DNA from: Deltaproteobacteria bacterium
Lineage (GTDB): Archaea; Thermoplasmatota; Poseidoniia; Poseidoniales; Poseidoniaceae
Assembly: GCA_028344335.1 (NCBI GenBank)
Contig: JAOMAZ010000009.1
Location: forward strand, 1 to 53,315
Reading direction: 5' to 3'
DNA length: 53,315 nt
Part shown: piece after piece, positions 7,458 to 47,797 of the stretch
Numbering within the stretch: position 1 is the first letter of the stretch
How the letters are laid out: each line of letters starts with the position of its first letter
Translations under genes and position numbers: made by a program
Notes under the pieces: model-generated
The model's database searches: none
The model's input: only the letters and a program-made list of their open reading frames with translations
What the model was told of the DNA's origin: nothing

Positions 7458-8606
7458 TCATACTGTAAGTGCCCATTTCTTGCCAATTTCAGAAATCTCG
7501 TGAAGTAATTTTTCAATTTGAATGCGGTGGTGCATACTTCTTGGAATTGAAGCATCACAACGTGCTAAGACATCCAGCAGATCTGCCAACGCACCTTCTG
7601 GAAGTAGCAACCTTCCTCTGATTAGCAATTGGTGAATTTGGTCGATAACGTCTTCAGCAGCCAAGGCATGTTTCATCATCAATTCATCTACTCTCCCCAT
7701 TGCTCCTTTCAAAGAGCGGACATTCTTGCCTGTGCTAGATTTTTCCCAATGCCATTCATGAATTCTACCCCTCAAAGATAATTCTAGAAGTTGTTGCACG
7801 GGGGTTAAGGTTGTTGAAGCAACTAAATTGTGTAAAGAACTTCTATCTGTTGTTCTTTCTGCCCTAATTAGTAATTCTAACAGGAATATTCCTTTTCTTA
7901 AATTACCTGAAGACACATGAATAATATCTCCAAGTAAACCATCGGTTAGTGTGTGTTTTTCTGATTCTAAAATAAGTGAAATACATCTCTCCATTTGTTC
8001 ATTAGGAGTGCTTGGAATGCGAATAGATTGGCACCTCGAACGTAGAGCATCAAGGATTCTACTTGGAGTTCTGGCAGTGAAAATAAATCTTGAGGTGTGT
8101 GCTTCTGACTCCATCATTCTACGAAGATAGGATTGACGAAGTGTTCCAAGTTGATCTGCATCCTCGATGACAATTAGTCGTGCTACTGGGGCGCGGGTTC
8201 GTCCTGCAAGTAAAATGTCATTTTCTGAGCCTGCGGGTGCGAGGTCTCCGGATTCAACTTTTACTATACCTCTATCAAATGCATCTAAGCTTGAGGTTCC
8301 TGCAAGAGAGCCTGCTTTTCCTGACCCCCCTGGCCGAAGAAAGTCTTCGAATTTTTTCATTGCTCCTGCAGCCCGTAAGAGGTTTCGGGCTTGTAATATG
8401 TGAGTGGTGTTTTTCCATCCTGGGCCTAGAACTTGCCTTGCCACTAACCTCCAAGCAGCGGTTTTTCCAACTCCAGATGGTCCTGCAATCAATATGTGGG
8501 GGGGGTTTGATGATACGGCAGCCGAACTTAGAATTCGACAAATATCAAGGGGCATGGCAAGGTCTTCGAAGCTCTTTGGAGCATGGGTTTCAAGCCAACT
8601 CGCCAT
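7458..8606 (-). CDS. Replication factor C small subunit-like AAA+ clamp loader
   Basis: Walker A GPSGVGKTAAWRL, Walker B LIVIEDADQL, arginine-finger region SRFIFTARTPSRILDALRSRCQSIRIP (cf. SRC motif). Confidence 0.85.
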   Translation of the reverse strand: MASWLETHAPKSFEDLAMPLDICRILSSAAVSSNPPHILIAGPSGVGKTAAWRLVARQVLGPGWKNTTHILQARNLLRAAGAMKKFEDFLRPGGSGKAGSLAGTSSLDAFDRGIVKVESGDLAPAGSENDILLAGRTRAPVARLIVIEDADQLGTLRQSYLRRMMESEAHTSRFIFTARTPSRILDALRSRCQSIRIPSTPNEQMERCISLILESEKHTLTDGLLGDIIHVSSGNLRKGIFLLELLIRAERTTDRSSLHNLVASTTLTPVQQLLELSLRGRIHEWHWEKSSTGKNVRSLKGAMGRVDELMMKHALAAEDVIDQIHQLLIRGRLLLPEGALADLLDVLARCDASIPRSMHHRIQIEKLLHEISEIGKKWALTV

Positions 8607-8751
8607 ATTCTCAAACTGCTTGGATGGCAGCGGTACATGAATGATTGCGATTGAGGTGTAGTTTTGTTTAAATGAAAGGGTTCAAGGTTTGGCTATTAGA
8701 TTAGAAAGTGTAAGGTTGGAAGGATATTGGTTATCCTGCTCCTTGTTTAGT

Positions 8752-9180
8752 TCAGTTTCTTGCGATAACCGCCATTGCTTCTACTTCAATGAGCATTTCA
8801 GGATCAACGAGCCCCTTAACAACAACCAACGATGTAGCAGGAAGTATCTCTTTGAAAAAATCCCCGTGAGCCCTCATTATTCGATAGCAGTCGTTTTCAT
8901 TTACAGCATACATTCTAGTTCTAACAACATCTTTCATTGATGCCCCCACTTCTACCAAGGCCCTCTGAATACGTTGTAATGCAATTCTAGTTTGTTCAGT
9001 AGCATCTCCTTTAGCCAATACCCTTCCTTCTGGGTCTGTTGCTGTGGTTCCCGAAACATGAACTGTCTGTCCAACTCTAATTGCACGAGAAAAACCTGCT
9101 ACCTGCTCAAAGGGGGTGCCGGTGTTGACTCGCTTCCTAGACATGCCTGCTCCGATTATCGGAAAAGGGCAATAGGTCAA
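8752..9180 (-). CDS. RidA/YjgF family protein
   Basis: GFSRAIRVGQTVHVSGTTATDPEGRVLAKGDATEQTRIALQRIQRALVEVGASMKDVVRTRMYAVN and IEVEAMAVI. Confidence 0.9.
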   Translation of the reverse strand: MTYCPFPIIGAGMSRKRVNTGTPFEQVAGFSRAIRVGQTVHVSGTTATDPEGRVLAKGDATEQTRIALQRIQRALVEVGASMKDVVRTRMYAVNENDCYRIMRAHGDFFKEILPATSLVVVKGLVDPEMLIEVEAMAVIARN

Positions 9181-9234
9181 GACCTGTTCGGTAGATTAAA
9201 AACACAAAAAATGTTCTTAGGAGAGGTTGAAGAC

Positions 9235-9387
9235 TCAAACAGCATCGAGGGTTTTGTGCCCAGAGCGGCGGGGTTTCATGAAAATACGGCTACCGCAGCC
9301 TTTGCAACTGATTCCATTTTCATCTGGGGTAAATGATTCCATGTTTCCACAGAAAGTGCACTTATAGTCTACTTCGCCACTAGCCAT
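9235..9387 (-). CDS. rpo12: DNA-directed RNA polymerase subunit P (Rpo12-like zinc ribbon)
   Basis: MASGEVDYKCTFCGNMESFTPDENGISCKGCGSRIFMKPRRSGHKTLDAV, 50 aa from an internal ATG of the 9235..9471 ORF; CxxC...CxxCGSRIxxKxR pattern. Confidence 0.85.
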   Translation of the reverse strand: MASGEVDYKCTFCGNMESFTPDENGISCKGCGSRIFMKPRRSGHKTLDAV

Positions 9388-9522
9388 ACTGGTTCCCTCG
9401 ATGAACGCCGACCTGACTATCTGTTTTGAACCTGTCCTATCAAGAAATAATGTTTTTTTGCAAAAAGCCACATCTAAATTGCGACATGTTCAAGGGGCGC
9501 TTGCAATGGCACAATCGCCATC

Positions 9523-10116
9523 ATGGATGAAAAGGGTCGCCTAATTATTGACGTTGTTGACAACGGGGGGCAATGGACTCACCGTGAATGGAGAGTGCTA
9601 AGACACCTTGGGGTCAATACCCAAATTATCGATAACACAACTCCTGTTGAAAAAATGAGGGATTTGGACGGGTTACTCCTTTCGGGTGGGGCTGCTCGAG
9701 TGGGGTTAACTGGGGAACTCGGTAATTGCGCTGCCTATCTTGAACTTGAGGTTCCAATTCTTGGAATTTGTGCAGGCCACCAATTTATGGCTAGATATTA
9801 TGGCGGGGATGCAAGAGAAGCACCTGAACCTGAATTTGGGGCAATGGAAATAAATCTGAATGGAGACGGAGGGATTCTCTACCGAGGGACGCCTGAATCT
9901 CAAATTGTGTGGGAATCACATAATGATGAAGTCCACATAATTCCTGATGGTTTTTTCATCACAGCAAGTAGTATTTCTTGTGAAGTCCAATCGATGGAAA
10001 ACAACGATGCTACGCGCTTCGGATTACAATTTCATCCCGAAGTAAATGATTCAGAATATGGTACTGAAATGATGAGTAATTTTGTTGAGCATTGCCGCTT
10101 CAAACTTGAAGGTTAG
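9523..10116 (+). CDS. guaAA: GMP synthase, glutamine amidotransferase subunit
   Basis: DNGGQWTHREWRVLRHLGV, GLLLSGG, VPILGICAGHQFMARYYGG (catalytic Cys), GLQFHPEV. Confidence 0.92.
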   Translation: MDEKGRLIIDVVDNGGQWTHREWRVLRHLGVNTQIIDNTTPVEKMRDLDGLLLSGGAARVGLTGELGNCAAYLELEVPILGICAGHQFMARYYGGDAREAPEPEFGAMEINLNGDGGILYRGTPESQIVWESHNDEVHIIPDGFFITASSISCEVQSMENNDATRFGLQFHPEVNDSEYGTEMMSNFVEHCRFKLEG

Positions 10117-11500
10117 CTTGACGCGCATGCATTAGGACTCGCATGCTGTGCTCAATCACTGAAGCCCATCTCCATGCTTCATCGAAATCAACGCCTGTTG
10201 AGAAAACACCATGGCCACGCACTACGACTGCTTTCATGTTCCCTTGTTTCAATGCCTCTGCAAGGTGTCTCAAATACTCATCTGGATTATCTGCATCAGG
10301 CTCCACAATTACAATATTCCCAAGATGGTTGATTCCTTCCTTGTCGATTGGTTTTAGAACTATCAAATCTTTTTCACAAGAAATTGCGGTGGCAAATGGT
10401 GGATGGCTGTGGATACAAGCGGCCGGCCCTTTTGTTTGAAGGGATTTTGATGCGATAAGAACTTCTAACATTCGCCATTGTTCTGGTGCGTTGCCTGGTG
10501 CAGTTTGACCCAATCTGCCGCTGGCGATATGTTGCTCAGTCATTTGTCCTAATATTGCTCCTTTTGTTGATGTGTGCATCAATCCTGCTTCATCAGGATT
10601 TAGAATTGCCACGGCACCGACATCTGCATGAACTAGTCCTTCTTTGTGTAATTGGCGGCCAATTCTAACGAAATCAGCAACCATGTGAGATGAAACAACA
10701 TAATCTGGGCCAACTACTGGGGGCATTGGTTGTTCTTCTATTTCTGAAATTATTTCAGCGCTACCACTTAATGCATTACGTAAGCGGTTAATTTCATGTT
10801 CTAAATTTTGTATTTTATTAGATGAGCTCGAAATGAGATCTAATGCTTCTGAAACAAGGTCATTTGCCTCTTTGGTAGGTTCAGAAGGGGATAATTGCTG
10901 CTCAATAGTTACTTCGGCTGGGAGGGGAGATGGTGGGCCACCAGGAGGGTCTGATGGCTCTAGTACAGTTTCGGTAGAAGGAGGAGATGGTGGGCCGCCA
11001 GGAGGGCCTTGTTGAGGTGGGCCACCAGGGGGGCCTTGTTGAGGTGGGCCACCAGGAGGGCCTGATGGCTCTGGTACAGTTTCGGTCGGAGGGGGAGATG
11101 GTGGGCCGCCAGGGGGGCCTTGTTGAGGTGGGCCGCCAGGGGGGCCTTGTTGAGGTGGGCCGCCAGGGGGGCCTGATGGTTCTGAAGCTGTTTGATTGCC
11201 CTGTAAGTTGGTGGCAAAGGCGGGTTCTGGGGTATCCTCGGGTTCCGGCATAGAGGTCCCGACAACGCTCGCAGCATTCAACATGGCTGCCATTACATTG
11301 TCATCTGGCTCTGATTCATCTGCTATTTCTTCAACCGCCTCAATTTGCTGAGGTTCGGGTTCTTCTTCAACTGCAACAACATTACCCGCGTCTCCAAATC
11401 CGACCGCAAACAAGTCATTTGCAGCAAGTTGTTGCTCTTCTTCTCGAGCCTGTTGGGAGGATGTTCTTCTAGCCATGCGCCTCGCCTTGAAGCGGGCCAC
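10100..11500 (-). CDS. Class II aldolase/adducin-domain protein with N-terminal Pro/Gly-rich repeat region
   Basis: C-terminal VADFVRIGRQLHKEGLVHADVGAVAILNPDEAGLMHTSTKGAILGQM...CIHSHPPFATAIS...VVVRGHGVFSTGVDFDEAWRWASVIEHSMRVL; N-terminal (GPPGGPPQQ)n. Confidence 0.88.
   Translation of the reverse strand: MARFKARRMARRTSSQQAREEEQQLAANDLFAVGFGDAGNVVAVEEEPEPQQIEAVEEIADESEPDDNVMAAMLNAASVVGTSMPEPEDTPEPAFATNLQGNQTASEPSGPPGGPPQQGPPGGPPQQGPPGGPPSPPPTETVPEPSGPPGGPPQQGPPGGPPQQGPPGGPPSPPSTETVLEPSDPPGGPPSPLPAEVTIEQQLSPSEPTKEANDLVSEALDLISSSSNKIQNLEHEINRLRNALSGSAEIISEIEEQPMPPVVGPDYVVSSHMVADFVRIGRQLHKEGLVHADVGAVAILNPDEAGLMHTSTKGAILGQMTEQHIASGRLGQTAPGNAPEQWRMLEVLIASKSLQTKGPAACIHSHPPFATAISCEKDLIVLKPIDKEGINHLGNIVIVEPDADNPDEYLRHLAEALKQGNMKAVVVRGHGVFSTGVDFDEAWRWASVIEHSMRVLMHARQANLQV
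10938..11178. repeat. In-frame tandem repeat (27-bp GPPGGPPQQ units inside a roughly 108-bp higher-order repeat)
   Basis: Repeated ggtgggcc(a/g)ccagg(a/g)gggccttgttga, with two copies of the larger block ending gatggctctRgtacagtttcggt. Confidence 0.9.
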
Positions 11501-11546
11501 GACACGCGCCTTAAATACACGTTTCCTGTCGCCGGATTCCTGACAG

Positions 11547-11621
11547 CCGTTGTAGTGTAGGGGTCAACATGGGAGGTTGTCGATCTCCCGCCCCGGGTTC
11601 AAATCCCGGCAACGGCGCCAT
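11547..11621 (+). tRNA. tRNA-Asp (anticodon GUC), apparently with encoded CCA
   Basis: Acceptor GCCGTTG/CAACGGC; anticodon arm GGAGG-TTGTCGA-TCTCC; T arm CCGGG-TTCAAAT-CCCGG; discriminator G followed by CCA (11619-11621). Confidence 0.93.
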
Positions 11622-11664
11622 TAATTGTTGAAGTATAGTGTCGCATCTTCGCTAAATTGTGTCC

Positions 11665-11793
11665 TTAATTTGTTGAATGGTTAATCACTGTACCGCAAAC
11701 CACACAGTAAACATCTATTCCCCCAATTCGCGGCTCAATTCCCGCGATATCAATTTTATTTCCACAATTGCAAAGGACTTTTGTGCTCGCCAT
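11665..11793 (-). CDS. Small zinc-ribbon-like protein (42 aa), not in ORF track
   Basis: Reverse-strand translation MASTKVLCNCGNKIDIAGIEPRIGGIDVYCVVCGTVINHSTN*; CxC...CxxC. Confidence 0.7.
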   Translation of the reverse strand: MASTKVLCNCGNKIDIAGIEPRIGGIDVYCVVCGTVINHSTN

Positions 11794-24790: not shown

Positions 24791-26602
24791 TTACTGGTTA
24801 TTAGCCGCTTCTTCAGACTGCGGTGTGATGAACTCTACGCTACTATCTCTGTCGATGTGGGGTATCGACAAAGTCGATGAATCATCTATCATTATGTGAA
24901 TCGGACAAGAACAAACTGGAGCGAGGTAATCCTCTCCTGTACTGGTCATCACCAACCTAATACCATGCCCTGCTGGTAAAATAGCATCTATTCCTTGGAA
25001 TTCCATCATCATTACAATTTCTTGTCCTGAAATAACAGTTTGTGGTTCATAACCACCAGCATGATAGCGCAAATCCATTGTTGCATGGCCCAGCCTCATG
25101 CCTGTTTCAGCATCTTGCATTTCAACGAAGATTTGGCCTCCGTCGCCACTTGCATGTACTGTCATGTGTAGTCTTGTTAGGCCTGAAATATGGGTGTTGT
25201 TTTCAAAACCTGGACAATTAATTTGCACTGTACCTGTATTTCCAATATTACCAATGGTTGGAGCGCCCCCCACGGTGTCGCCTTGAGAATTGCACTCATC
25301 AAATGTTATGTCAGCCCATTCCTGATCTTGGGGTGGCCAAGTCTCTTCCACTCTCCATTGACCATCATTGCGTTGGATTTGGGCATGAAGGTCGGGTTTT
25401 GGACCTACGCCTTTGAGATAATATTCGAACCATTCAAAGAGGTCTTGAGCCCAGTCCCACCTAGTCATGTTGTGGATAGCTTCACCCCCATAACCACTGT
25501 CCTGCGCATTGTGTTTTGTCCATTGGTCTGGATAGTTATGCTCCCATTGACCTAGAATTCCTCTGACTTCAAAACCCGCATCGATGTAATCCTGATACCA
25601 GTTGTATCCCATCGGGCCTCCGAATACTTGGTGTGGGTCTACATTCCAATCCTGCATTCCCTGAACCCAGTAAACTGAGCCGTTCCAGTTTTCAAATGCC
25701 TTGTCGATATGGCTTCTTTCTTGGTAATAATTTTCCATGTATGGATCGAGTTCTCCAGCCCCATATGTAACTGGTCCTGCAAATAATCCTTCGACAATGT
25801 CTGGGCAAACATTGTCAAAGTCATCTTCATTATAATCTACTGTGCTTGAAAAATAATTCATGTGCATAACTTGACTTCTTGCTTCTGCGCTACCGTTTTT
25901 GTAAAGTAAAGAATGAAGAGCGGTAGTTCCCGATATCGGCACGATTGTTTTGAGGTGCTCGCTTCCAAGTGCTGCTGCTTCCCATTGGGTTGCGCCTTCG
26001 TATGATTTGCCGTAAAGCCCGACATTTCCATTGCTCCATTCTTGCTGTCCTAGCCATTCTACTGCACTATGAATTCCGAGTCCTTCTCCTGCGCCGCGAT
26101 AATCAAAGCATCCCGTTGAGAGTTCGGTACCAAATACAGACACTTGGGCGAATGCGTAGCCATGAGGGATGAAGTTTTCAAAGATGAACTCACCTCGCCC
26201 TCCCCCTACAACGCTGGTATCTCCCGATTCTGAGCCGGGTTGCCCGAATGAAAAATATGGGCTGATTACTGCGATGACTGGTACTTTTTCACCTTCTTCA
26301 GTATTGCTTGGAAGCCAATATGAAAGGTGAACTTCAGAACTATCTGGGCCGTTTTCCCAAATTGAGCTTGTGTCGACTGTAATGTAAGCATCTTGGACTT
26401 CTAGAGCGTGGTATGGTCCCTCTTCCAAAACATAAGAGAAGGTGTGATTCCATTTCCATTCCTCTGTATGGCGTTCTTCTAGGAGTGGATAGAATGGCTC
26501 TTCTTCTAGGTGACTGGTTATTTCTTCACTGCCAAAGCAACCAGATAATGAGGTTAGAATGAGGAGGAGGACTAATGCGATGGGGGCGGCGCGTCCTGCC
26601 AT
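24791..26602 (-). CDS. CocE/NonD-type (X-Pro dipeptidyl-peptidase S15-like) hydrolase lipoprotein
   Basis: Lipobox LILTSLSGCFG; NVGLYGKSYEGATQWEAAALGSEHLKTIVPISG (GxSYxG nucleophile elbow); C-terminal jelly-roll-like region. Confidence 0.88.
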   Translation of the reverse strand: MAGRAAPIALVLLLILTSLSGCFGSEEITSHLEEEPFYPLLEERHTEEWKWNHTFSYVLEEGPYHALEVQDAYITVDTSSIWENGPDSSEVHLSYWLPSNTEEGEKVPVIAVISPYFSFGQPGSESGDTSVVGGGRGEFIFENFIPHGYAFAQVSVFGTELSTGCFDYRGAGEGLGIHSAVEWLGQQEWSNGNVGLYGKSYEGATQWEAAALGSEHLKTIVPISGTTALHSLLYKNGSAEARSQVMHMNYFSSTVDYNEDDFDNVCPDIVEGLFAGPVTYGAGELDPYMENYYQERSHIDKAFENWNGSVYWVQGMQDWNVDPHQVFGGPMGYNWYQDYIDAGFEVRGILGQWEHNYPDQWTKHNAQDSGYGGEAIHNMTRWDWAQDLFEWFEYYLKGVGPKPDLHAQIQRNDGQWRVEETWPPQDQEWADITFDECNSQGDTVGGAPTIGNIGNTGTVQINCPGFENNTHISGLTRLHMTVHASGDGGQIFVEMQDAETGMRLGHATMDLRYHAGGYEPQTVISGQEIVMMMEFQGIDAILPAGHGIRLVMTSTGEDYLAPVCSCPIHIMIDDSSTLSIPHIDRDSSVEFITPQSEEAANNQ

Positions 26603-26604
26603 GA

Positions 26605-27531
26605 CTATTCCTCCGCGCCTATCTTTGAAGAACCGCTCGCTTCTGGAAAAGTGGTTTTTGTGAGGTTTTCAGACTCCTTCCAGAATTGATTTGCTACATT
26701 TTGATCCTTTGCTTTTTTCTTTATTGTTGCTTTTTTAGGATAGCCGGCTGCTTCCATAATTCCCCTTGGGCCCCAATATGGATGTTGAGTTGCTTCTGAA
26801 TCGGTTGCTGCTCTTAATGCTGGTAATGCACCTTTCTTGGGTGTTTGAGTAAAGGTGAATACAAAGTTTCCAAATAGAAAATAACGACCGAGTTTTGTCC
26901 TGCTCATTCCAGGGTGTGCTGCTAAAGAACGGGTTTTTGAATTCCTTGCCTGTAATTTTCTATCAAGTTCAATAGCAAACATAAGATTGGCAAGCTTACT
27001 TTGTGCATAAACTTTCCAGCGATTGTATTTTTTGTCTTTCCAGTTTAGGTCGCCAAGGTTGATTTTACCTGATTTGTGAGCCATACTAGATAGTGAAACA
27101 ACTCTGGAGTTTTCTGTTTTTTCAAGTAATGATAGAAGTTGGTTCGTCAGTGCAAAATGTCCGAGGTGATTAATGCCAATTTGGTATTCAAAACCATCTT
27201 CAGTTTGCCACTTAGGGGTCATCATAACGCCTGCATTGTTGATTAGAATGTCGAGCCGGTCATGTTTTTGATGGACCTTTTCACTAAACTCTTTGACCGA
27301 TTTTAATGAGGATAGGTCTAATATTTCTATTTCTATTTTTGCATCTGATTGTTGTTTGATAATTTTTTCTTTGGCTGTTTGGGCGCGTTTTTCACTTCTG
27401 CAAGCCATGATGATTCTGGCGCCTTTTTGAGCGAGATATTTTGCCATCCAAAAGCCAATTCCTGAGTTGGCTCCTGTAATGATGATTATGCGACCTGATT
27501 GGTCTGGGATGTTGGCGGCACTCCACTTCAT
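26605..27531 (-). CDS. Short-chain dehydrogenase/reductase (retinol dehydrogenase-like)
   Basis: GRIIIITGANSGIGFWMAKYLAQKGARIIMACRS; LDILINNAGVM; SLSSMAHKSG...YAQSKLANLMF. Confidence 0.93.
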   Translation of the reverse strand: MKWSAANIPDQSGRIIIITGANSGIGFWMAKYLAQKGARIIMACRSEKRAQTAKEKIIKQQSDAKIEIEILDLSSLKSVKEFSEKVHQKHDRLDILINNAGVMMTPKWQTEDGFEYQIGINHLGHFALTNQLLSLLEKTENSRVVSLSSMAHKSGKINLGDLNWKDKKYNRWKVYAQSKLANLMFAIELDRKLQARNSKTRSLAAHPGMSRTKLGRYFLFGNFVFTFTQTPKKGALPALRAATDSEATQHPYWGPRGIMEAAGYPKKATIKKKAKDQNVANQFWKESENLTKTTFPEASGSSKIGAEE

Positions 27532-27582
27532 TAGATTGTGCTGGGGCTAATATGAAAAGAACCTGTGCCAAGCGTCATGAGG
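27497..27582. repeat. 86-bp direct repeat, left copy (SDR start / epimerase start region)
   Basis: gattggtctgggatgttggcggcactccacttcattagattgtgctggggctaatatgaaaagaacctgtgccaagcgtcatgagg, identical to 30303-30388. Confidence 0.98.
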
Positions 27583-27725
27583 TCATTGGTGTTGGAAAGG
27601 ATATGTCTGGATGATGGTTAAATCCACTTGTGATACTGCATTAGAAATATAATATCTCGGGTTGGTAATTTTTGTTGAACATTAATTGCAAAAACTTTAT
27701 AATTATTATCTGAAATTAGGGTTGT

Positions 27726-28400
27726 ATGAGTGCAATAGAGAGTAGTATTTTCGATGAATATAATCGTATTATTCTTCAATTTTTAAAAGAAGAAAAAGAA
27801 AGAAAGGGAGAGATATATCAATGGTATGAAAGGAGATATTTAGCCCAAGAAGTAGGTCTCTCTATCATTGAACGTAGGATTGTTGATTTTATTCTAGAAC
27901 GTTTTGGCACTAGTAAACAAATTGTAGAAATTGGTGCAGGGGTTGCGCAATGCTCCTTCTTATTGGCTGGACATGGTGTAGATGTAGTACCGGTTGAATC
28001 TAGTCATGAATGCTTTGATATGATGACGGAATTAGCAGAAAAAATTTCTACAATAGATTCTAAAATAAAAAAACATTTCAAGCCAATTAAAGGAAAATAT
28101 CCTATGGTTGTTCACGAGAAATCTATAAGTGCTAATAGCATTTTTATGTTTCCTAGTTTAAGTTTTGGTCAAACTGAGGAAGAAGAATTACAATCGATGA
28201 TGTCTATGAAACTTAGCGACGGGGTGATAATTGGACTCACACAACATTTCCGGCCTCGAAATTCAGAAGAAGAAAAGGAAGAGTTGATTAAACAAGTTCG
28301 TGAACTGGGATTTGGTGAACCAATAGAGATATTTTCATGGAATGACTCGAATTTTGGTTTTGCTCCGGACAGAATAGTTTACTTGGAAAGAACTGATTAA
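27726..28400 (+). CDS. Predicted SAM-dependent methyltransferase-like protein
   Basis: Motif I-like IVEIGAGVAQCSFLLAGHGVDVVPVESS; 224 aa. Confidence 0.6.
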   Translation: MSAIESSIFDEYNRIILQFLKEEKERKGEIYQWYERRYLAQEVGLSIIERRIVDFILERFGTSKQIVEIGAGVAQCSFLLAGHGVDVVPVESSHECFDMMTELAEKISTIDSKIKKHFKPIKGKYPMVVHEKSISANSIFMFPSLSFGQTEEEELQSMMSMKLSDGVIIGLTQHFRPRNSEEEKEELIKQVRELGFGEPIEIFSWNDSNFGFAPDRIVYLERTD

Positions 28401-28491
28401 AATCTTAAATATATTCCAGTTCTTAGGAAGAGGTTGGTGCTTACATAAATATAGTCTTATACCTAGCCCATGTTATGTCACATGTCAGTGA

Positions 28492-29340
28492 TTGTCTGGA
28501 TGGGGGATTTTTAAAGTGATATCACCGGGTTCATCATTGACTGTTGCAACATTGAAGGAATTGTGTAGGAGTAGAGGGCTTTTTGTTTCTGGAAATAAGG
28601 TAGAACTGATTGAACGTCTGATGCAATATGGAAGGAAAAAGACAAGGAAAGAGCATCCGTTTCTAGAAACATTTGGTGATTACTATCTACCTAGAAAGTT
28701 CTCTCCAAATCAATTAAAGATGTTTCTTTCCGAAAAATTGTGTTTAAAGAAAATTTGGTTGGAAGACGATCCAAGGTTTGAAAAAATTTGTACTGGGTTT
28801 GGTTTTGAATTTATTATTGGTAGAAAGATTACGGTATTGGATTTAAGTAAATCTGAAGATCAACTTTGGTCCGAGTTAAATAGAAAACGCCGAAACACAA
28901 TCAGATCCGCCATTAAAAATGGTGTCGTCATTGAACTTGCTGAATCAACTGATGCTTTGGAAGCTGAACAAGTATGGCTTAAAGGCTCTTGTACAAAACA
29001 CAACTTAAGTAATGAATATGTTTCTACAATGTCTGAAAAAATTAATATTTGGATTGAGAGGAAAATTTTATTTGTTGCGAAATTAGATAATAAAATAATC
29101 GCAGGAACGAAAGTAGCACAATCTAATTGCTTACCAACAAATGAAGTTTTATATTATAGTTCTAATTCTTCGCTTCAAGAATATTTAAAATTTAATCCAA
29201 ATGACTTGCTGATTTGGGAAATTGTGAAATACGCAAAAGTAAATGGTTTTTCTTTTTTTAATATGGGAGGAGGAAACCTATTCAAGAGAAAGTTTTCTGT
29301 AATGGAGCCGATGGTTGTAAACGAATGGACAAAAAAATAA
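28492..29340 (+). CDS. SAP-domain protein fused to FemAB/GNAT-like acyl(aminoacyl)transferase
   Basis: N-terminal SSLTVATLKELCRSRGLFVSGNKVELIERLMQ (SAP); then LWSELNRKRRNTIRSAIKNGVVIEL and PNDLLIWEIVKYAKVNGFSFFNMGGGNLFKRKF (FemAB/GNAT pattern). Start TTG 28492 or GTG 28516. Confidence 0.72.
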   Translation: MSGWGIFKVISPGSSLTVATLKELCRSRGLFVSGNKVELIERLMQYGRKKTRKEHPFLETFGDYYLPRKFSPNQLKMFLSEKLCLKKIWLEDDPRFEKICTGFGFEFIIGRKITVLDLSKSEDQLWSELNRKRRNTIRSAIKNGVVIELAESTDALEAEQVWLKGSCTKHNLSNEYVSTMSEKINIWIERKILFVAKLDNKIIAGTKVAQSNCLPTNEVLYYSSNSSLQEYLKFNPNDLLIWEIVKYAKVNGFSFFNMGGGNLFKRKFSVMEPMVVNEWTKK

Positions 29341-29356
29341 ATTTGGGGAGTAAGCC

Positions 29357-29929
29357 ATGATATACTTGTATTCTAAATTCGAAAACCCAAACTTCATCTA
29401 TTTCACTAACCCTAAAACAGCGAGCAGATCCCTGCGCGCACACTTAAAGAATAACTCAATCGAACTCCAAACCGAAACTCCAAAAAAAGTCACCGTAAAT
29501 ATTGAAGATTACTTTAAATTCGTATTCGTCAGGAACCCTTGGGATAGAATACTTTCAGCGTTTTTAGATAAAGCCGTCAGGGGGGCGAGCAGTAAAAACC
29601 AACTTAAAAGATACGCCCCCTTTAAAGACAGCTCTTTTAGCGAATTTGTCGCTTCAATCAAAAACTCAGACGTCAACAGTGAAGAGAGGCACATACAATC
29701 ACAAATAAAATTCATCCCAGACTATGTCGACTTTATTGGTAGATATGAAAATTTAACCGCCGACATGAGTCGAGTGTGTGAAGAAATAGGTATACCCTTT
29801 GATGGGTTTCCCCATGCCAATAAAACCAATAGGGTAGGCTCATACAGGGACTACTATGACGATTACTCAAAAGATGTTATAGCAGATAAGTACTACGAAG
29901 AAATAGAAAGATTCAATTATAAGTTTTAA
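29357..29929 (+). CDS. Sulfotransferase family protein
   Basis: Putative PAPS-binding motifs NPKTASRSLRAHL and FVFVRNPWDRILSAFLDK; GFPHANKTNRVGSYRDYYDDYSKDVIADKYYEEIERFNY C-terminus. Confidence 0.85.
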   Translation: MIYLYSKFENPNFIYFTNPKTASRSLRAHLKNNSIELQTETPKKVTVNIEDYFKFVFVRNPWDRILSAFLDKAVRGASSKNQLKRYAPFKDSSFSEFVASIKNSDVNSEERHIQSQIKFIPDYVDFIGRYENLTADMSRVCEEIGIPFDGFPHANKTNRVGSYRDYYDDYSKDVIADKYYEEIERFNYKF

Positions 29930-29934
29930 AAATT

Positions 29935-30340
29935 ATGAAAAATAAATGCATATATAACCTAGGCAACATGATCATCGGGTATAATCAGTTTAAGGCTGGG
30001 AGATAAATTAGAACTCAGCCAGGAACTATGCGCCGATAAAGTGATTTCCGAAGTTCTTGGGAAAGTAGAAAAATCAAACAATAAAAAATGGTTAATAACC
30101 ACAGGATTTCATAATGTTCATGTGTTTGCCAAAAAACTTAACCGGCCTAAGTCAGAAACCTTATTTAGGTCATTTGAAGTAATGAAAGGTGTTTTTACAG
30201 CCCTAGAGCTCAAGAAGGTGAATGTGAGCCTATCAATTGATACCCCAGATGATGTTGATGATGTTTTTGTTAAGCCCTGTCTATGTGATGATTACACGAC
30301 CGGATTGGTCTGGGATGTTGGCGGCACTCCACTTCATTAG
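29935..30340 (+). pseudogene. Decayed/frameshifted ORF whose 3' end runs into the right repeat
   Basis: MKNKCIYNLGNMIIGYNQFKAGR* (29935-30006) reads on in the next frame as DKLELSQELCADKVISEVLGKVEKSNNKKWLITTGF...; the C-terminus (TGLVWDVGGTPLH) is derived from the duplicated repeat. Confidence 0.45.
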
Positions 30341-30388
30341 ATTGTGCTGGGGCTAATATGAAAAGAACCTGTGCCAAGCGTCATGAGG
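30303..30388. repeat. 86-bp direct repeat, right copy
   Basis: Identical to 27497-27582; reverse strand retains the SDR start MKWSAANIPDQSGRVIIT* as a truncated remnant. Confidence 0.98.
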
Positions 30389-30408
30389 CTGTTGCTGTTG
30401 GAATAGAT

Positions 30409-31380
30409 ATGGTTGGCCGCATTTTGGTGACTGGTGGCGGGGGCTTTCTAGGTAGCCACATTGTCAAACAATTACTTGAGGGGGGGCGTGAGGTTCGAAC
30501 TACAGCACGGAACCCTGAAACTGCTGAATTTTTGAAAGAGTTTGGAGATGTTGAAATTGTAAAGATGAATTTACTAGATTTAGATTCTGTAAAGGCCGCT
30601 GTGGTAGATTGTGAAGAGGTGATTCATTGTGCTGCTCCACTTTATATCAATGCTAAAAACACTCAAAAAAATGTTATTGATCCGTCTATTATTGGTACAA
30701 AAAATCTCGTTGAGGCCTTGAGAAATAGCAACGTAAAGAAAATTGTACATACGTCTTCGGTTGCTGCGATTCGTGCGACAAATTATCAAAATGGAAAGAT
30801 ATTTACTACCGAGGATTGGTGTGATGATGCTACCTTGAAAACAAACCCCTACGGGCTTGCAAAGGCTGGTGCAGAGAAGGTAATGCGTGAATGGGTTGAA
30901 GGATCTGGTATCCGATTGATTACAATTCACCCTTCTATATTATTTGGAAAAACATTGCATCCTCGTCATCTCGAAGGTTCTATGTCTTACATGAAACACT
31001 TCCTCAAAGGTCCGCCTTTTGTCTTAAATATTCACATTAATTTTGTCGATGTTGAAGATACTGCGCGTGCCCATGTTGCTGCTTTAGAGAAAGGGTCTGA
31101 GGGGGGCCGTTACTTGATTCATTCAGGAGGAATGTGGATGAGGGAAATTGGCAATCATCTCGCTAAGGTAATTCCAGAAAGAAAGTGGGCTCGGCGTCGC
31201 CTGCCAAATATTTTTGCATATTTTTTTGCAGTTATTCATCCAAAACTCAGCCTTAGAATGTTGAAGGATAATCTTGGAACATGGGTTGATTATGATGCCT
31301 CCGCACAATTTGATTTGATTCAAAAAATAAGACCTGTGAAAGAAATTATTGAAGAAACGATGCGTGGGCTTCTATCGTAA
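30409..31380 (+). CDS. NAD-dependent epimerase/dehydratase (extended SDR)
   Basis: RILVTGGGGFLGSHIVKQLLEGGREVRTTAR; EVIHCAAPL; NPYGLAKAGAEKVMREW. ORF opens at 30358, likely start ATG 30409. Confidence 0.9.
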   Translation: MVGRILVTGGGGFLGSHIVKQLLEGGREVRTTARNPETAEFLKEFGDVEIVKMNLLDLDSVKAAVVDCEEVIHCAAPLYINAKNTQKNVIDPSIIGTKNLVEALRNSNVKKIVHTSSVAAIRATNYQNGKIFTTEDWCDDATLKTNPYGLAKAGAEKVMREWVEGSGIRLITIHPSILFGKTLHPRHLEGSMSYMKHFLKGPPFVLNIHINFVDVEDTARAHVAALEKGSEGGRYLIHSGGMWMREIGNHLAKVIPERKWARRRLPNIFAYFFAVIHPKLSLRMLKDNLGTWVDYDASAQFDLIQKIRPVKEIIEETMRGLLS

Positions 31381-42240: not shown

Positions 42241-42946
42241 GTTCTTCTGCTAACAAATCAATTTTAGCTTCTTCAACTAATGTTCCCGTTACAATCCAGT
42301 CGGCTCCAGCCTCAACTGCATTCCTAACATCTTCTTTAGTCCGAATTCCACCACCAACCATCAAACAATCTGCATGTGCTACCTTGATCATATCTGTATT
42401 AACTGGATATTTTGCTCCACTTCCTGCTTCAAGATAGACTATTTTCATTCCATATCCTTTTGCACATAGAGAATAAGAAATTACTTCTTCTGGACTAACA
42501 AGGGGTGTTGCGTTTCCAACTTCACCTACCTTTCCCCCTGGCTCACAAATAAGATATGCAGTAGGTAGCATTTCAATTCCATTTTCATATAACCAAGTTG
42601 CTCCTTTAACCTGTTCTCCAATTAAAAAACGTGGGTTATTACTATTCATTAACATCATGAAAAGGATTCCATCTGCATTTGGAGATAATGCATGAGCCCC
42701 CCCTGGGAATAATACAACAGGCACATTTACAACTTTTTTTATTGCAACAATAGTTGCATGAACTAAATCAGTGGGGGTGTCTGTAGAACCTCCGATTAGT
42801 ATTAATTTACTTCCTACTTCAACTACAATTTTTGCCTTCAAAGCCGCTTCTTCTGGAGATTGGTTTGCTGGATCAAATAATGTTGCATGGCGTGGTGTAT
42901 CGCTCTCACAAAACCAATTCAGTAGTTCCCCCTCCGCAAACATCAT
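42209..42946 (-). CDS. Geranylgeranylglyceryl phosphate synthase
   Basis: HATLFDPANQSPEEAA, LILIGGSTDT, VVLFPGGAHALSPNADGILFMMLMNSNNPRFLIGEQ, PTAYLICEPGGKVGEVGNA, KIVYLEAGSGAKYPV, LMVGGGIRTKEDVRNAVEAGADWIVTGTLVEE. Confidence 0.95.
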   Translation of the reverse strand: MMFAEGELLNWFCESDTPRHATLFDPANQSPEEAALKAKIVVEVGSKLILIGGSTDTPTDLVHATIVAIKKVVNVPVVLFPGGAHALSPNADGILFMMLMNSNNPRFLIGEQVKGATWLYENGIEMLPTAYLICEPGGKVGEVGNATPLVSPEEVISYSLCAKGYGMKIVYLEAGSGAKYPVNTDMIKVAHADCLMVGGGIRTKEDVRNAVEAGADWIVTGTLVEEAKIDLLAEELKTLILHLHR

Positions 42947-42984
42947 CCTTGGCAGGGGTGTTTCGGACTTGTGCCTTCGGGTAG

Positions 42985-43572
42985 TTATTTTACTTGAGAT
43001 GCTAACTCTTTTCCTCTAATTATTGCAGCATCAGCACCTAATTTTTCAGGATGTTTTCCTTGGATTAATTCTATCCAATTTTCTATTGGTTCATTTTCGG
43101 TCCACCATATTTCTCCTGTACCATCTTCTCTAGTCCATTTTTGACTACCAATACTAATTCCTCCATACCATTGAATCAGTTTCCGAGATGGTGGTCTTAA
43201 CATTTTAATATTTGTTAATATTAAATTCGAGGATGATTTTTCCCCTAATGCATCAATGTAAATATCTCCAGACACCTTTCCGCATGAAGTGATAAGGCCA
43301 TCTTCAAAACCAATAATTCTAGTTTTTAATTTAATATCAACACCTTGTTGGGTTGCCATAATAGCCATATTTTTTTCTAACCAACCTCTTCTAAAAGAAT
43401 TATTTTTATAATCAAGTTTGGATGGTATTAAGGATAAATTTTCAATCCAACCTGGGGAATTACATGGTGTTCCTAATTCTTGTTTCATATCAACAATAAT
43501 TACTTCATGTTCTATAAGATCTAATGCGGCTGATAATCCAGTTAATCCACCTCCAGCAATTATCACTTTCAT
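42985..43572 (-). CDS. Short FAD-dependent oxidoreductase, geranylgeranyl-reductase-like
   Basis: MKVIIAGGGLTGLSAALDLIEHEVIIVDMKQELGTPCNSPGWIENL; ~195 aa; ATGA overlap with upstream ferredoxin. Confidence 0.7.
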   Translation of the reverse strand: MKVIIAGGGLTGLSAALDLIEHEVIIVDMKQELGTPCNSPGWIENLSLIPSKLDYKNNSFRRGWLEKNMAIMATQQGVDIKLKTRIIGFEDGLITSCGKVSGDIYIDALGEKSSSNLILTNIKMLRPPSRKLIQWYGGISIGSQKWTREDGTGEIWWTENEPIENWIELIQGKHPEKLGADAAIIRGKELASQVK

Positions 43573-43775
43573 GAAGATACCTCTGGAATAATAGCCAATG
43601 CAAAAACAGGACAAGAAGGAATACAATGTTCACAATGAGTGCAAGATTTTTCATCTACTATTGCTAAATCATTTTCCAGATGAAGTGCATCAACAGGACA
43701 GAGTGCTATACAAGCTGCACAACCATAACAAAGGTCGTCGTCGACTACAAAAATATGGGCGTCAACTCTTGCCAT
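43569..43775 (-). CDS. 2x[4Fe-4S] ferredoxin
   Basis: CYGCAACIALCPVDAL and CTHCEHCIPSCPVFAL. Confidence 0.93.
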   Translation of the reverse strand: MARVDAHIFVVDDDLCYGCAACIALCPVDALHLENDLAIVDEKSCTHCEHCIPSCPVFALAIIPEVSS

Positions 43776-44070
43776 ATACCTTCGAAGCAGTCATCTATGA
43801 AAAGTAATCTCCATAGGAAAGTGAATTTCCACTAAAAAGAGTGCCCGTCCCCTTACCCCTTAGTTTCTACTGGAAGTACTGTTATTAGCTAAAAGTATAG
43901 TAAGAAATGATAGAAGAAAAATATGGTATAGCAAGACCCATTGATTCATATCGCGTAAGGTGTATATTGATTTTGATAGATATTTTTTGATAGGTTGCTC
44001 TATTTTTAGTTCCAGTGGAAATAAGGGGGTGTATGCAAATCTTCATTTCATATGCTCTTGACGGTTACTT

Positions 44071-45384
44071 ATGGTGATGTATTCTCCAGGCAAAACTTCC
44101 TCATATCCAGATGAGCCTGTAGACAAAGGATTGAGATATCATTTTCTTGGAGGAGGGTCTGAAGTTGGAAATGTTGGAATTATTCTTGAAGGAGATAAAG
44201 GAGATAGATTACTTATTGATTATGGCCTTGCACCAACAGATCCTCCTCGTTATCCTGCTGAAGCTCCAAAAGTAACTGATGTAATTGTAACTCATTCACA
44301 TATTGATCACATTGGAATGATCCCATGGATAAGTGGTTCACATCATTCAACATTACACGCAACTCATGTTACTGTGGCATTAAGTGAATTGATGTGGAGA
44401 GATTGTCATAAAGTAAGTAGAATTGAAGGATATCCACTTCCTTGGGATAAAAGAGATATGGATTTTGCTTTAGAAAGTTGGAAAGTTCATAAATTTGGAG
44501 AATGGGTTGAACATGGAAATTGGAAATGGCGTCTACATTCGGCAGGCCATATTCCAGGTGCAGCTATGGTAGAAATCGATATTGGAAATAAGAAAGTCTT
44601 ACTATCTGGTGATTTCGATACTAGGGATTCATCATTAGTTTCTGGTGCTTTGCCTGTGGATGTGGATATATTGTTCGTTGAAGGAACATATGGGGGAAGA
44701 ACTCATCCAAAAAAAGAATTTGAAATAAAAAGATTAATTGAGAGAATTAAAGAAGTAAAAAATAGGGGTGGAACAGTATTAATTCCAGCCTTTGCAAATG
44801 GAAGAGGCCAAGATATTTTGATGACTTTACATTCTGTATTACCAAATTTAAATGTCCATTATGATGGAATGGGAAAAATAATCACTCGGCACTATTTAGA
44901 AAATTCAGAATATCTAAAAGATTCAGAAGCACTTGAATCCGCCTTTAAGTGGGCAAAAAGAGTATCATCAAAATCAGATAAAAAGAAAGCACTTGAAGCA
45001 GATGTAATTGTAACTACAAGTGGGATGTTAGATGGAGGACCATCTATTTGGTATCTTAATAGATTAAGGAATGATGAACGAAATGCAATATTTTTCACCG
45101 GTTATCAAGCCAAAGGTTCTGGTGGTAGAATGCTTCAAGAAGAAGGCAAGCTTCCGATTTTTGGTAATATTTGCCAGATTGATTTAGAATGGGATACATT
45201 TGGTTTTTCTACCCATGCAGGCCATGATGAAATTGTTGAATTTGCAAAAGCATGCGGAGCAAATGATGTTGTTGTCTATCACACAGATCCAATTAATGCT
45301 CGCCCACCCCTAGTTGAAGCATTAGAAGCAAACGGACATACCACCCATCAACCAATCAATGGAGAATCTCATATCATCGAATAA
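44071..45384 (+). CDS. Metallo-beta-lactamase / beta-CASP family ribonuclease (archaeal CPSF/RNase J-like)
   Basis: VIVTHSHIDHIG, SAGHIPGAAMVEID, LLSGDFDTRDS, LIPAFANGRGQDIL, VIVTTSGMLDGGPSIWYL, STHAGHDEIVEFAKACG. Confidence 0.9.
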   Translation: MVMYSPGKTSSYPDEPVDKGLRYHFLGGGSEVGNVGIILEGDKGDRLLIDYGLAPTDPPRYPAEAPKVTDVIVTHSHIDHIGMIPWISGSHHSTLHATHVTVALSELMWRDCHKVSRIEGYPLPWDKRDMDFALESWKVHKFGEWVEHGNWKWRLHSAGHIPGAAMVEIDIGNKKVLLSGDFDTRDSSLVSGALPVDVDILFVEGTYGGRTHPKKEFEIKRLIERIKEVKNRGGTVLIPAFANGRGQDILMTLHSVLPNLNVHYDGMGKIITRHYLENSEYLKDSEALESAFKWAKRVSSKSDKKKALEADVIVTTSGMLDGGPSIWYLNRLRNDERNAIFFTGYQAKGSGGRMLQEEGKLPIFGNICQIDLEWDTFGFSTHAGHDEIVEFAKACGANDVVVYHTDPINARPPLVEALEANGHTTHQPINGESHIIE

Positions 45385-45420
45385 ATTGAATACCTAAACC
45401 GTAAGCGGAGAACGATTCAT

Positions 45421-45726
45421 ATGGCTGCGAAGAGACCAACTAAAGGTAAAAAACCAGCTGCGGGTGGTAAAAAGAAGAGGCGACGTAAGAAAAAAATGCG
45501 TTTAACTTTAAAATCTCGTTCAATGAAAGAAAGTGATACTTATACAGATTCGGTTGGTTGGTCGACCACAGGTAGAGTTTTGGAAGATGCTGTTGCGGCA
45601 CCAGAATCAACCCAAATTAAGCACCAATGCAGTCTTTGCGGCTCAATTATGATGGTACCAAAACCAAAGCGGGCAAAGTATACCATCACCTGTCCTAACT
45701 GTGAACACAAAGACGATTTTTCATGA
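45421..45726 (+). CDS. Small zinc-ribbon protein with highly basic N-terminus
   Basis: MAAKRPTKGKKPAAGGKKKRRRKKKMRLTLK...HQCSLCGSIMMVPKPKRAKYTITCPNCEHKDDFS. Confidence 0.78.
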   Translation: MAAKRPTKGKKPAAGGKKKRRRKKKMRLTLKSRSMKESDTYTDSVGWSTTGRVLEDAVAAPESTQIKHQCSLCGSIMMVPKPKRAKYTITCPNCEHKDDFS

Positions 45727-46523
45727 TACGGGCAATTATTATTACCACCTTGATTTTATTCAGTGGGTTATCTGGGTGTCTTGAAGAAGTTGAAGATTCT
45801 GAAGGATTGTTGCTTGCAACCACAACTTCAATGAGAGATTCAGGATTACTTAATGAATTATTACCTGCTTTTGAAAAAGCAACGGGAATTCATGTTAATG
45901 TTGTAGCGGTTGGTACAGGTGCCGCATTAAATCTTGGAGAAAATGGCGATGCTGATGTATTAATCGTTCATTCACCTGAAAAAGAAATTGAATTTATTGA
46001 AGATGGATTTGGAATTTCTAGAAATACATTTGCTTGGAATAGATTTGTTTTAATTGGGCCGAACAAACTAGATGGATTTTCTAATGCTTCAGAAGCATTT
46101 GCTTCTTTGGAGAATGAATGTTTTGTTTCTCGAGGGGATAATTCTGGAACTCATATTAAAGAATTAGAAATTTGGAAAAACGCAGGTATTGAACCAGGTG
46201 AGGAATATTTGTCTATTGGGCAAGGAATGGCAAGCGCTTTAAATATGGCAGATGAATTACAATGTTGGACTTTGAGTGATAAAGGAACTTGGTTATTTCG
46301 TTCAAACAAATTAGATTTAGAAGCAACATATTGGGAAGATGATTTAACTTTAAACCCCTATAGTATAATTCAATTAAATGGAGAAAAAAGTGAGGAGAGT
46401 TTACGATTTAATGAATTTATTCTTTCTTTTGAAAGTCAACAAATAATCAACAATTATTCAATTAATGGGCAGACACTATTCAATGCAGGTCAACCTAACC
46501 AACTTCCATTAAGTAGCGATTGA
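45723..46523 (+). CDS. tupA: Tungstate ABC transporter substrate-binding lipoprotein (TupA-like)
   Basis: Lipobox LFSGLSGC; LLLATTTSMRDSGLLNELLPAFEKATGIHVNVVAVGTGAAL; SRGDNSGTHIKELEIWKNAGI. Confidence 0.9.
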   Translation: MIRAIIITTLILFSGLSGCLEEVEDSEGLLLATTTSMRDSGLLNELLPAFEKATGIHVNVVAVGTGAALNLGENGDADVLIVHSPEKEIEFIEDGFGISRNTFAWNRFVLIGPNKLDGFSNASEAFASLENECFVSRGDNSGTHIKELEIWKNAGIEPGEEYLSIGQGMASALNMADELQCWTLSDKGTWLFRSNKLDLEATYWEDDLTLNPYSIIQLNGEKSEESLRFNEFILSFESQQIINNYSINGQTLFNAGQPNQLPLSSD

Positions 46524-47797
46524 GGGACATCTTTCTCTGTTACAACTTTACCATCATCTAAGATAATTATTTGTTTTGAAAGGCGTTTTGCTTGTAGTGA
46601 ATTATGAGTTGCAAGAAAAACCATTGCACCCCGGTTAAGATGATCTTGAACTAACCTTTCCATCATTTCAACATTTATCCCATCAAGGCTAGCTGTAAAT
46701 TCATCAAGAAGGAGGATATCAGGTTGGGAAGCAAGAGCACGGACCAATGCCAATCTTTGTTTTTCCCCTCCAGAGAGAGTTTTTGGGGATTTATTTTTTA
46801 GATTTTCCAAATTAACTTGTTTTAACCACCACATTGCCTCTTCACCCCCAACTCCAGCATGGCATATGTTTTGAAGGACTGAACCATGAAGAATAACGGG
46901 TTTTTGATGAACCATCATTATTTTTCCTTCAACCTTAATAGAATTAGAATCTATTAAACCCGCAATGTGTCTTAATAATGATGATTTTCCACTTCCCGAA
47001 GCACCAAGAACGGCACTACATTTTTCTAGAGAAAGTAAATTAATTTTGTTTAAAATTAATTTATTATCTACCTCCCAGTTTAGATTTTTTACAACAACAT
47101 TAGCAGAATATTTGTTAAAAATAGGGGCTTTTTCAGAATAGTTTTTTGAGCTAAATTTTTCTATTTCTAATTTCAAAGCTAATCCTGAAGCAAATAAAGC
47201 GATGAGGAGTAAAAGGCCACCACTAATTAAAGCAGAATCCAAATTACCTTGTTGTGTATCGAGTACAATACTAGTTGTCATAACCCTTGTTTTTCCAGCG
47301 ATATTTCCTCCTATTATCATCACTGCACCAACTTCTGCAACCGCTCTTCCAAAACCAACCAAAACTGCACTAATAATCCCCACCCTTGCCTCTTGCAATC
47401 TACTCAACATCATGTTTTTTGTTCCCAATAAACCATGAGTTTCCAATACTTCTTTTGGGATTTTATCAAATGCAGACCACGAAAGCCCCCAAACTAATGG
47501 CAAAATCAAAATCATTTGAGCGATTATCATTCCTTCGATAGTAAATAATAATTCAAGATCTCCAAAAGGTCCTTTACGAGAAAGAGCAAGATAAACAACA
47601 ACACCTACAACTACAGGTGGTAGGCCATAGAGAGTTCGAATCATAATTTTCAACCAATTAAAAGATTTAGATTGATGTTTTGAACACCATGATGCTAAAG
47701 GTAAACCAATCAACAATGCAAGTATGGTTGCACTCCCCGAGACGGCCAATGAGGTGAGGATGACAGTCATCGAATATATTCTACAAGGGGTTGGCAT
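46490..47797 (-). CDS. Fused tungstate ABC permease-ATPase (TupB-TupC)
   Basis: N-terminal permease (GFGRAVAEVGAVMIIGGNIAGKTRVMTTSI) followed in-frame by ABC ATPase (Walker [12 protein letters not shown], signature LSGGEKQRLALVRALA, Walker B ILLLDEFTASLD). Confidence 0.92.
   Translation of the reverse strand: MPTPCRIYSMTVILTSLAVSGSATILALLIGLPLASWCSKHQSKSFNWLKIMIRTLYGLPPVVVGVVVYLALSRKGPFGDLELLFTIEGMIIAQMILILPLVWGLSWSAFDKIPKEVLETHGLLGTKNMMLSRLQEARVGIISAVLVGFGRAVAEVGAVMIIGGNIAGKTRVMTTSIVLDTQQGNLDSALISGGLLLLIALFASGLALKLEIEKFSSKNYSEKAPIFNKYSANVVVKNLNWEVDNKLILNKINLLSLEKCSAVLGASGSGKSSLLRHIAGLIDSNSIKVEGKIMMVHQKPVILHGSVLQNICHAGVGGEEAMWWLKQVNLENLKNKSPKTLSGGEKQRLALVRALASQPDILLLDEFTASLDGINVEMMERLVQDHLNRGAMVFLATHNSLQAKRLSKQIIILDDGKVVTEKDVPQSLLNGSWLG

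Follow-up and report, generated by a model that had tools for sequence, protein, structure and literature searches.

How did a low-GC cargo of about 2.7 kb come to lie between two copies of the same divergent gene junction? The locus belongs to an uncultured marine archaeon, Ca. Poseidoniales, known from a draft genome of 1.32 Mb (57% complete, 56 contigs). The whole stretch of DNA analysed, 53,315 nt, is called the window below.

The duplicated junction and its cargo

The original prediction described an exact 86-bp direct repeat with weaker similarity on its outer sides, orphaned epimerase and SDR starts, and a length too great for a usual target-site duplication. Each of these points was confirmed. 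The exact core (27497-27582 = 30303-30388) forms part of a direct repeat of 131 nt (27480-27610 and 30286-30416; 92% identical, spacing 2806), and both orphaned starts read as claimed. The layout of the locus is as follows.

26605-27531, minus strand: intact host gene for an SDR oxidoreductase, flanking the island on the left (Pfam adh_short, E = 7.9e-30)
27480-27610, unstranded: left repeat copy, with host SDR start, divergent junction and truncated donor-like epimerase start (ATG 27603 TCT GGA TGA)
27726-28400, plus strand: cargo gene 1, methyltransferase-like, a weak assignment (motif-I-like VEIGAGVAQ; PHROG methyltransferase, E = 0.0049)
28492-29340, plus strand: cargo gene 2, fusion of a SAP domain with a FemAB/GNAT-type transferase (Pfam SAP, 2.3e-11; FemAB, 4.2e-8)
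29357-29929, plus strand: cargo gene 3, Sulfotransfer_2 family (Pfam, E = 1.7e-20)
29978-30340, plus strand: unknown ORF read from its translation, absent from the original prediction and probably a truncated fragment, which overlaps the right repeat at its 3' end
30286-30416, unstranded: right repeat copy, with truncated donor-like SDR start (MKWSAANIPDQSGRVIIT*), junction and host epimerase start (ATG 30409)
30409-31380, plus strand: intact host gene of NAD-dependent epimerase/dehydratase type, flanking the island on the right (Pfam Epimerase, 9.2e-33)

Homology ends abruptly at the inner end of both repeat copies. Past the 131 nt, SDR or epimerase remnants were undetectable, with alignment scores no better than those of shuffles. 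These sharp limits imply that the donor piece beside the cargo measured about 131 nt. An ordinary target-site duplication is ruled out by this length together with the diverged inner homology. The repeated junction contains a 38-bp core, GGCTAATATGAAAAGAACCTGTGCCAAGCGTCATGAGG, and is plausibly a putative promoter region kept by both host genes. The window holds no other non-tandem direct repeat of at least 36 nt. Two tandem 111-nt copies (94%) occur at 10932-11153 in a minus-strand ORF, where they encode a Pro/Gly-rich repeat (PPGGPPQQGPPGG).

The cargo had looked A/T-rich by eye, and computation bears this out: the GC content of 27611-30285 is 34.5% vs 41.8% outside, the lowest of any equal-length stretch in the window. 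Elsewhere, a low-GC stretch at 42500-47500 includes a 213-aa ORF (42985-43626) whose start resembles an FAD-dependent oxidoreductase.

Pfam supports the SAP-FemAB and sulfotransferase assignments made in the original prediction. The methyltransferase-like call stands in part: the motif-I-like stretch VEIGAGVAQ and weak matches speak for it, whereas cargo gene 1 has no Pfam match. The predicted fold of this protein, with a pLDDT of 38, was not relied on. Close relatives of the cargo were found in none of the 319-320 genomes of the order. For cargo gene 1 there were no relatives in the family and a single 27% match in the order, and a scan of genome contigs returned none. Relatives of the sulfotransferase, all in the other family of the order, reach 30-38% only, and phages contributed a distant sulfotransferase as their sole cargo relative. 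The FemAB part of cargo gene 2, whose start codon is uncertain and was taken as 28522 in the genome searches, had no relatives among 320 genomes of the order. Because SAP domains are common throughout the order, the SAP-FemAB fusion was probably made in a Poseidoniales lineage. The ORF at 29978-30340 gave no matches beyond the repeat itself. Judging from the family names, modification of surface glycans or polymers is the probable role of the cargo. A scan for TATA-like boxes placed one at 27696, 30 nt upstream of cargo gene 1, so the cargo need not rely on the captured junction.

The empty site and the older history of the junction

An empty site, with the SDR and epimerase genes adjacent and a single junction copy, was the comparison proposed at the outset, and it was found in a sister species, Ca. 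Poseidoniales archaeon UWMA-0357 (contig DUDM01000004.1). The window and this contig are collinear on both sides of the island at ~89-90% identity, and the break falls exactly at the repeat. The epimerase start (ATG 30409) is conserved in UWMA-0357 and in a further genome of the genus, G005. Among GTDB contigs the junction occurred only on that of UWMA-0357, in single copy, and the further genus genomes examined, which are incomplete assemblies, added none beyond the host and UWMA-0357. Cargo at this site can be compared on contigs of these two genomes, one filled and one empty. The proposal of a swappable cargo slot found no backing, as no relative has other cargo behind the repeat.

The same map would arise if the assembler had threaded a free 2.8-kb circle, or a distant locus sharing the exact 86 bp, into the chromosome. 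The draft state of the genome lends this some weight, and an exact 86-bp repeat can be falsely bridged at short k-mers. However, normal synteny continues on both sides within the window, and maintenance of a 2.8-kb circle would be difficult with no recognisable replication gene on it. We consider such an artefact very unlikely.

The junction has itself changed before. In 43 family genomes where both genes were found, S15 peptidase and epimerase lie side by side in divergent orientation, their matches 46-238 bp apart; G005 too has this arrangement. An SDR gene lies between them in the host and UWMA-0357 only, being absent from this position in 43 other genomes; in G003 it adjoins the S15 peptidase gene and the contig stops inside it. 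Five further genomes showed no S15 peptidase within the stretch examined. Gene order indicates that the SDR gene (26602-27531) entered between peptidase and epimerase as an older, lineage-specific insert, and the junction would therefore have taken one earlier insert. No duplication from this older insertion is visible, and homology between the SDR/epimerase junction and the S15/epimerase junction of other genera was not convincingly detectable.

Origin of the two repeat copies

Outside the exact core, each repeat copy has 45 nt of flank, 17 nt on the SDR side and 28 nt on the epimerase side. All differences between the copies fall there (11/45 flank positions vs 0/86 in the core; Fisher P = 3e-6), and an 86-nt clean run would arise from 11 randomly placed differences with a chance of 4e-5. 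Compared with UWMA-0357, the inner ends differ at 4 sites of the 45-nt flanks and the outer, host ends at 9. This pattern, which draws on a single sister genome and on 11 differences within 45 nt, suggests that the inner remnants represent a donor haplotype nearer to UWMA-0357 than the host's own gene starts are. The core is also more conserved than the flanks between species (5/86 vs 9/45 differences, P = 0.018), so donor and host may have shared the same core to begin with. After a plain crossover, donor-host differences would be expected in the core as well, so either the cores were identical or a tract was converted. The exact core is suggestive of a converted tract or of a crossover inside it.

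Could the duplication have arisen within a single genome? Break repair or template switching might have doubled the 131-nt junction and captured foreign DNA, after which the copies drifted apart. Such an event requires no donor junction, and the inner ends, presumably free of selection, could drift. Drift is not expected, however, to bring the dead inner ends nearer to a sister species than the live outer ends, nor does it fit well with differences that all lie in the flanks and spare the 86-nt core. We regard this origin as unlikely.

An empty site in a sister species, a duplicated junction, foreign composition and a mosaic of haplotypes characterise the locus. Because the inner remnants are nearer to UWMA-0357 than to the host gene starts, we favour a recent gain of the cargo by homologous recombination with DNA bearing a related junction copy, at a probability of roughly 0.6. 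Of the insertion originally proposed, the recent entry into a one-copy site and the donor-like inner ends are retained, and the exchangeable slot is not. Donor DNA with a related 131-nt junction copy beside the cargo would have recombined at the divergent SDR/epimerase junction, so placing ~2.7 kb of foreign DNA there. The host recombination machinery would probably have served, with no recombinase supplied by the island. Neither host gene, SDR or epimerase, would have lost its start or the upstream region that the two share, and the truncated starts of the donor would have remained on the inner sides. The observed map would follow either from a single crossover with a 2.8-kb circle or from the import of a linear cassette whose two ends each already carried a junction copy.

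Searches of GTDB contigs and of a 1.24 Mb sample revealed no donor, circle or second example, and the 113 sequences of that sample, nearly all from the family, contained no second island of the same build. Long repeats were seen at 839-2101 and 7826-11728 of locus L143 (genome G045). The 7826/11501 pair, the only similar one in the sample, was rejected as an island of this build: the repeats of 7826-11728 are where two adjacent paralogous genes begin, both encoding large secreted-type proteins. A stronger version of the favoured reading appears rather unlikely. It envisages an integrase-free, mobile circular cassette of Poseidoniales that has a copied host divergent promoter region as its attachment site, enters and leaves through host recombination and preserves both neighbouring genes.

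The absence of a transposase or integrase, noted in the original prediction, was upheld by Pfam, PHROGs and NCBIfam scans, which detected no integrase, transposase or other recombinase family in the island ORFs. Another route would be a site-specific integrase acting in trans on a satellite element; the element's attachment site would then contain a copy of the host junction, much as numerous integrative elements include part of their target gene. The anatomy would be the same, with attL and attR enclosing donor half-sites. Tyrosine recombinases do exist in these genomes: the host has one, on a different contig from the island, and UWMA-0357 and G003 have extra copies. Yet the island has no integrase inside or beside it, its target is no tRNA gene, and 131 nt of homology is long for an att site. 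The sole host recombinase, moreover, looks like a conserved housekeeping Xer-type gene, since its contig also holds the SAP gene seen near a recombinase in UWMA-0357, G003 and G005. Insertion in trans seems to us as unlikely as a single-genome origin.

Comparison with known elements

For uncultured planktonic archaea, gene gain is deduced mainly from phylogeny. At this locus a single gain event has left a scar that can be read from the empty site, the duplicated junction and the apparently donor-derived ends. Should circles or further cargo be found, they would show integrase-free gain of surface-modification genes in Poseidoniales.

Charybdis elements are small circular Poseidoniales DNAs of ~4.6 kb with a structural module and accessory methyltransferases; integrated forms carry an integrase, and several adjoin tRNA genes (bioRxiv 2025; PMC12324425). 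The island shares with them the Poseidoniales host and a methyltransferase(-like) gene but lacks an integrase, a tRNA-gene neighbour and a structural module (PMC12324425). Pfam, PHROGs and NCBIfam identify none of the four ORFs in its 2.7-kb cargo as structural, and the missing integrase gene also separates it from integrase-borne islands and satellites.

Replacement flexible genomic islands of aquatic prokaryotes are clusters exchanged through their flanks (PMC4033161). They resemble the present case in homologous recombination within flanking DNA and in surface-modification functions; in contrast, cargo was added here and the junction was duplicated (PMC4033161). Following the account in PMC7843796, the unconventional circularizable structures of Palmieri et al. 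(2013) likewise hold recombinase-less cargo between extensive direct repeats. Their repeats are usually much longer than those found here, their circles were detected by PCR, whereas circularisation is only inferred for the island, and their cargo consists mostly of resistance genes (PMC7843796).

Events of this type are uncommon but known, and islands that have long direct repeats and no recombinase come closest, namely the structures just described and the microcin H47 island. The latter, a 13-kb island of E. coli, is flanked by direct repeats of 144-148 bp whose identity is 76% and which include several short identical segments, and its excision was detected by PCR (PMC3191183, PMC5426353). 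Unlike that island, the present one is archaeal, is known from its sequence alone, and has repeats that are 92% identical with 86 bp exact. Both are small, and relatives of both have empty sites; like the H47 island, the present one combines long direct repeats (131 nt, 92%) with no recombinase gene inside and an empty site, that of UWMA-0357.
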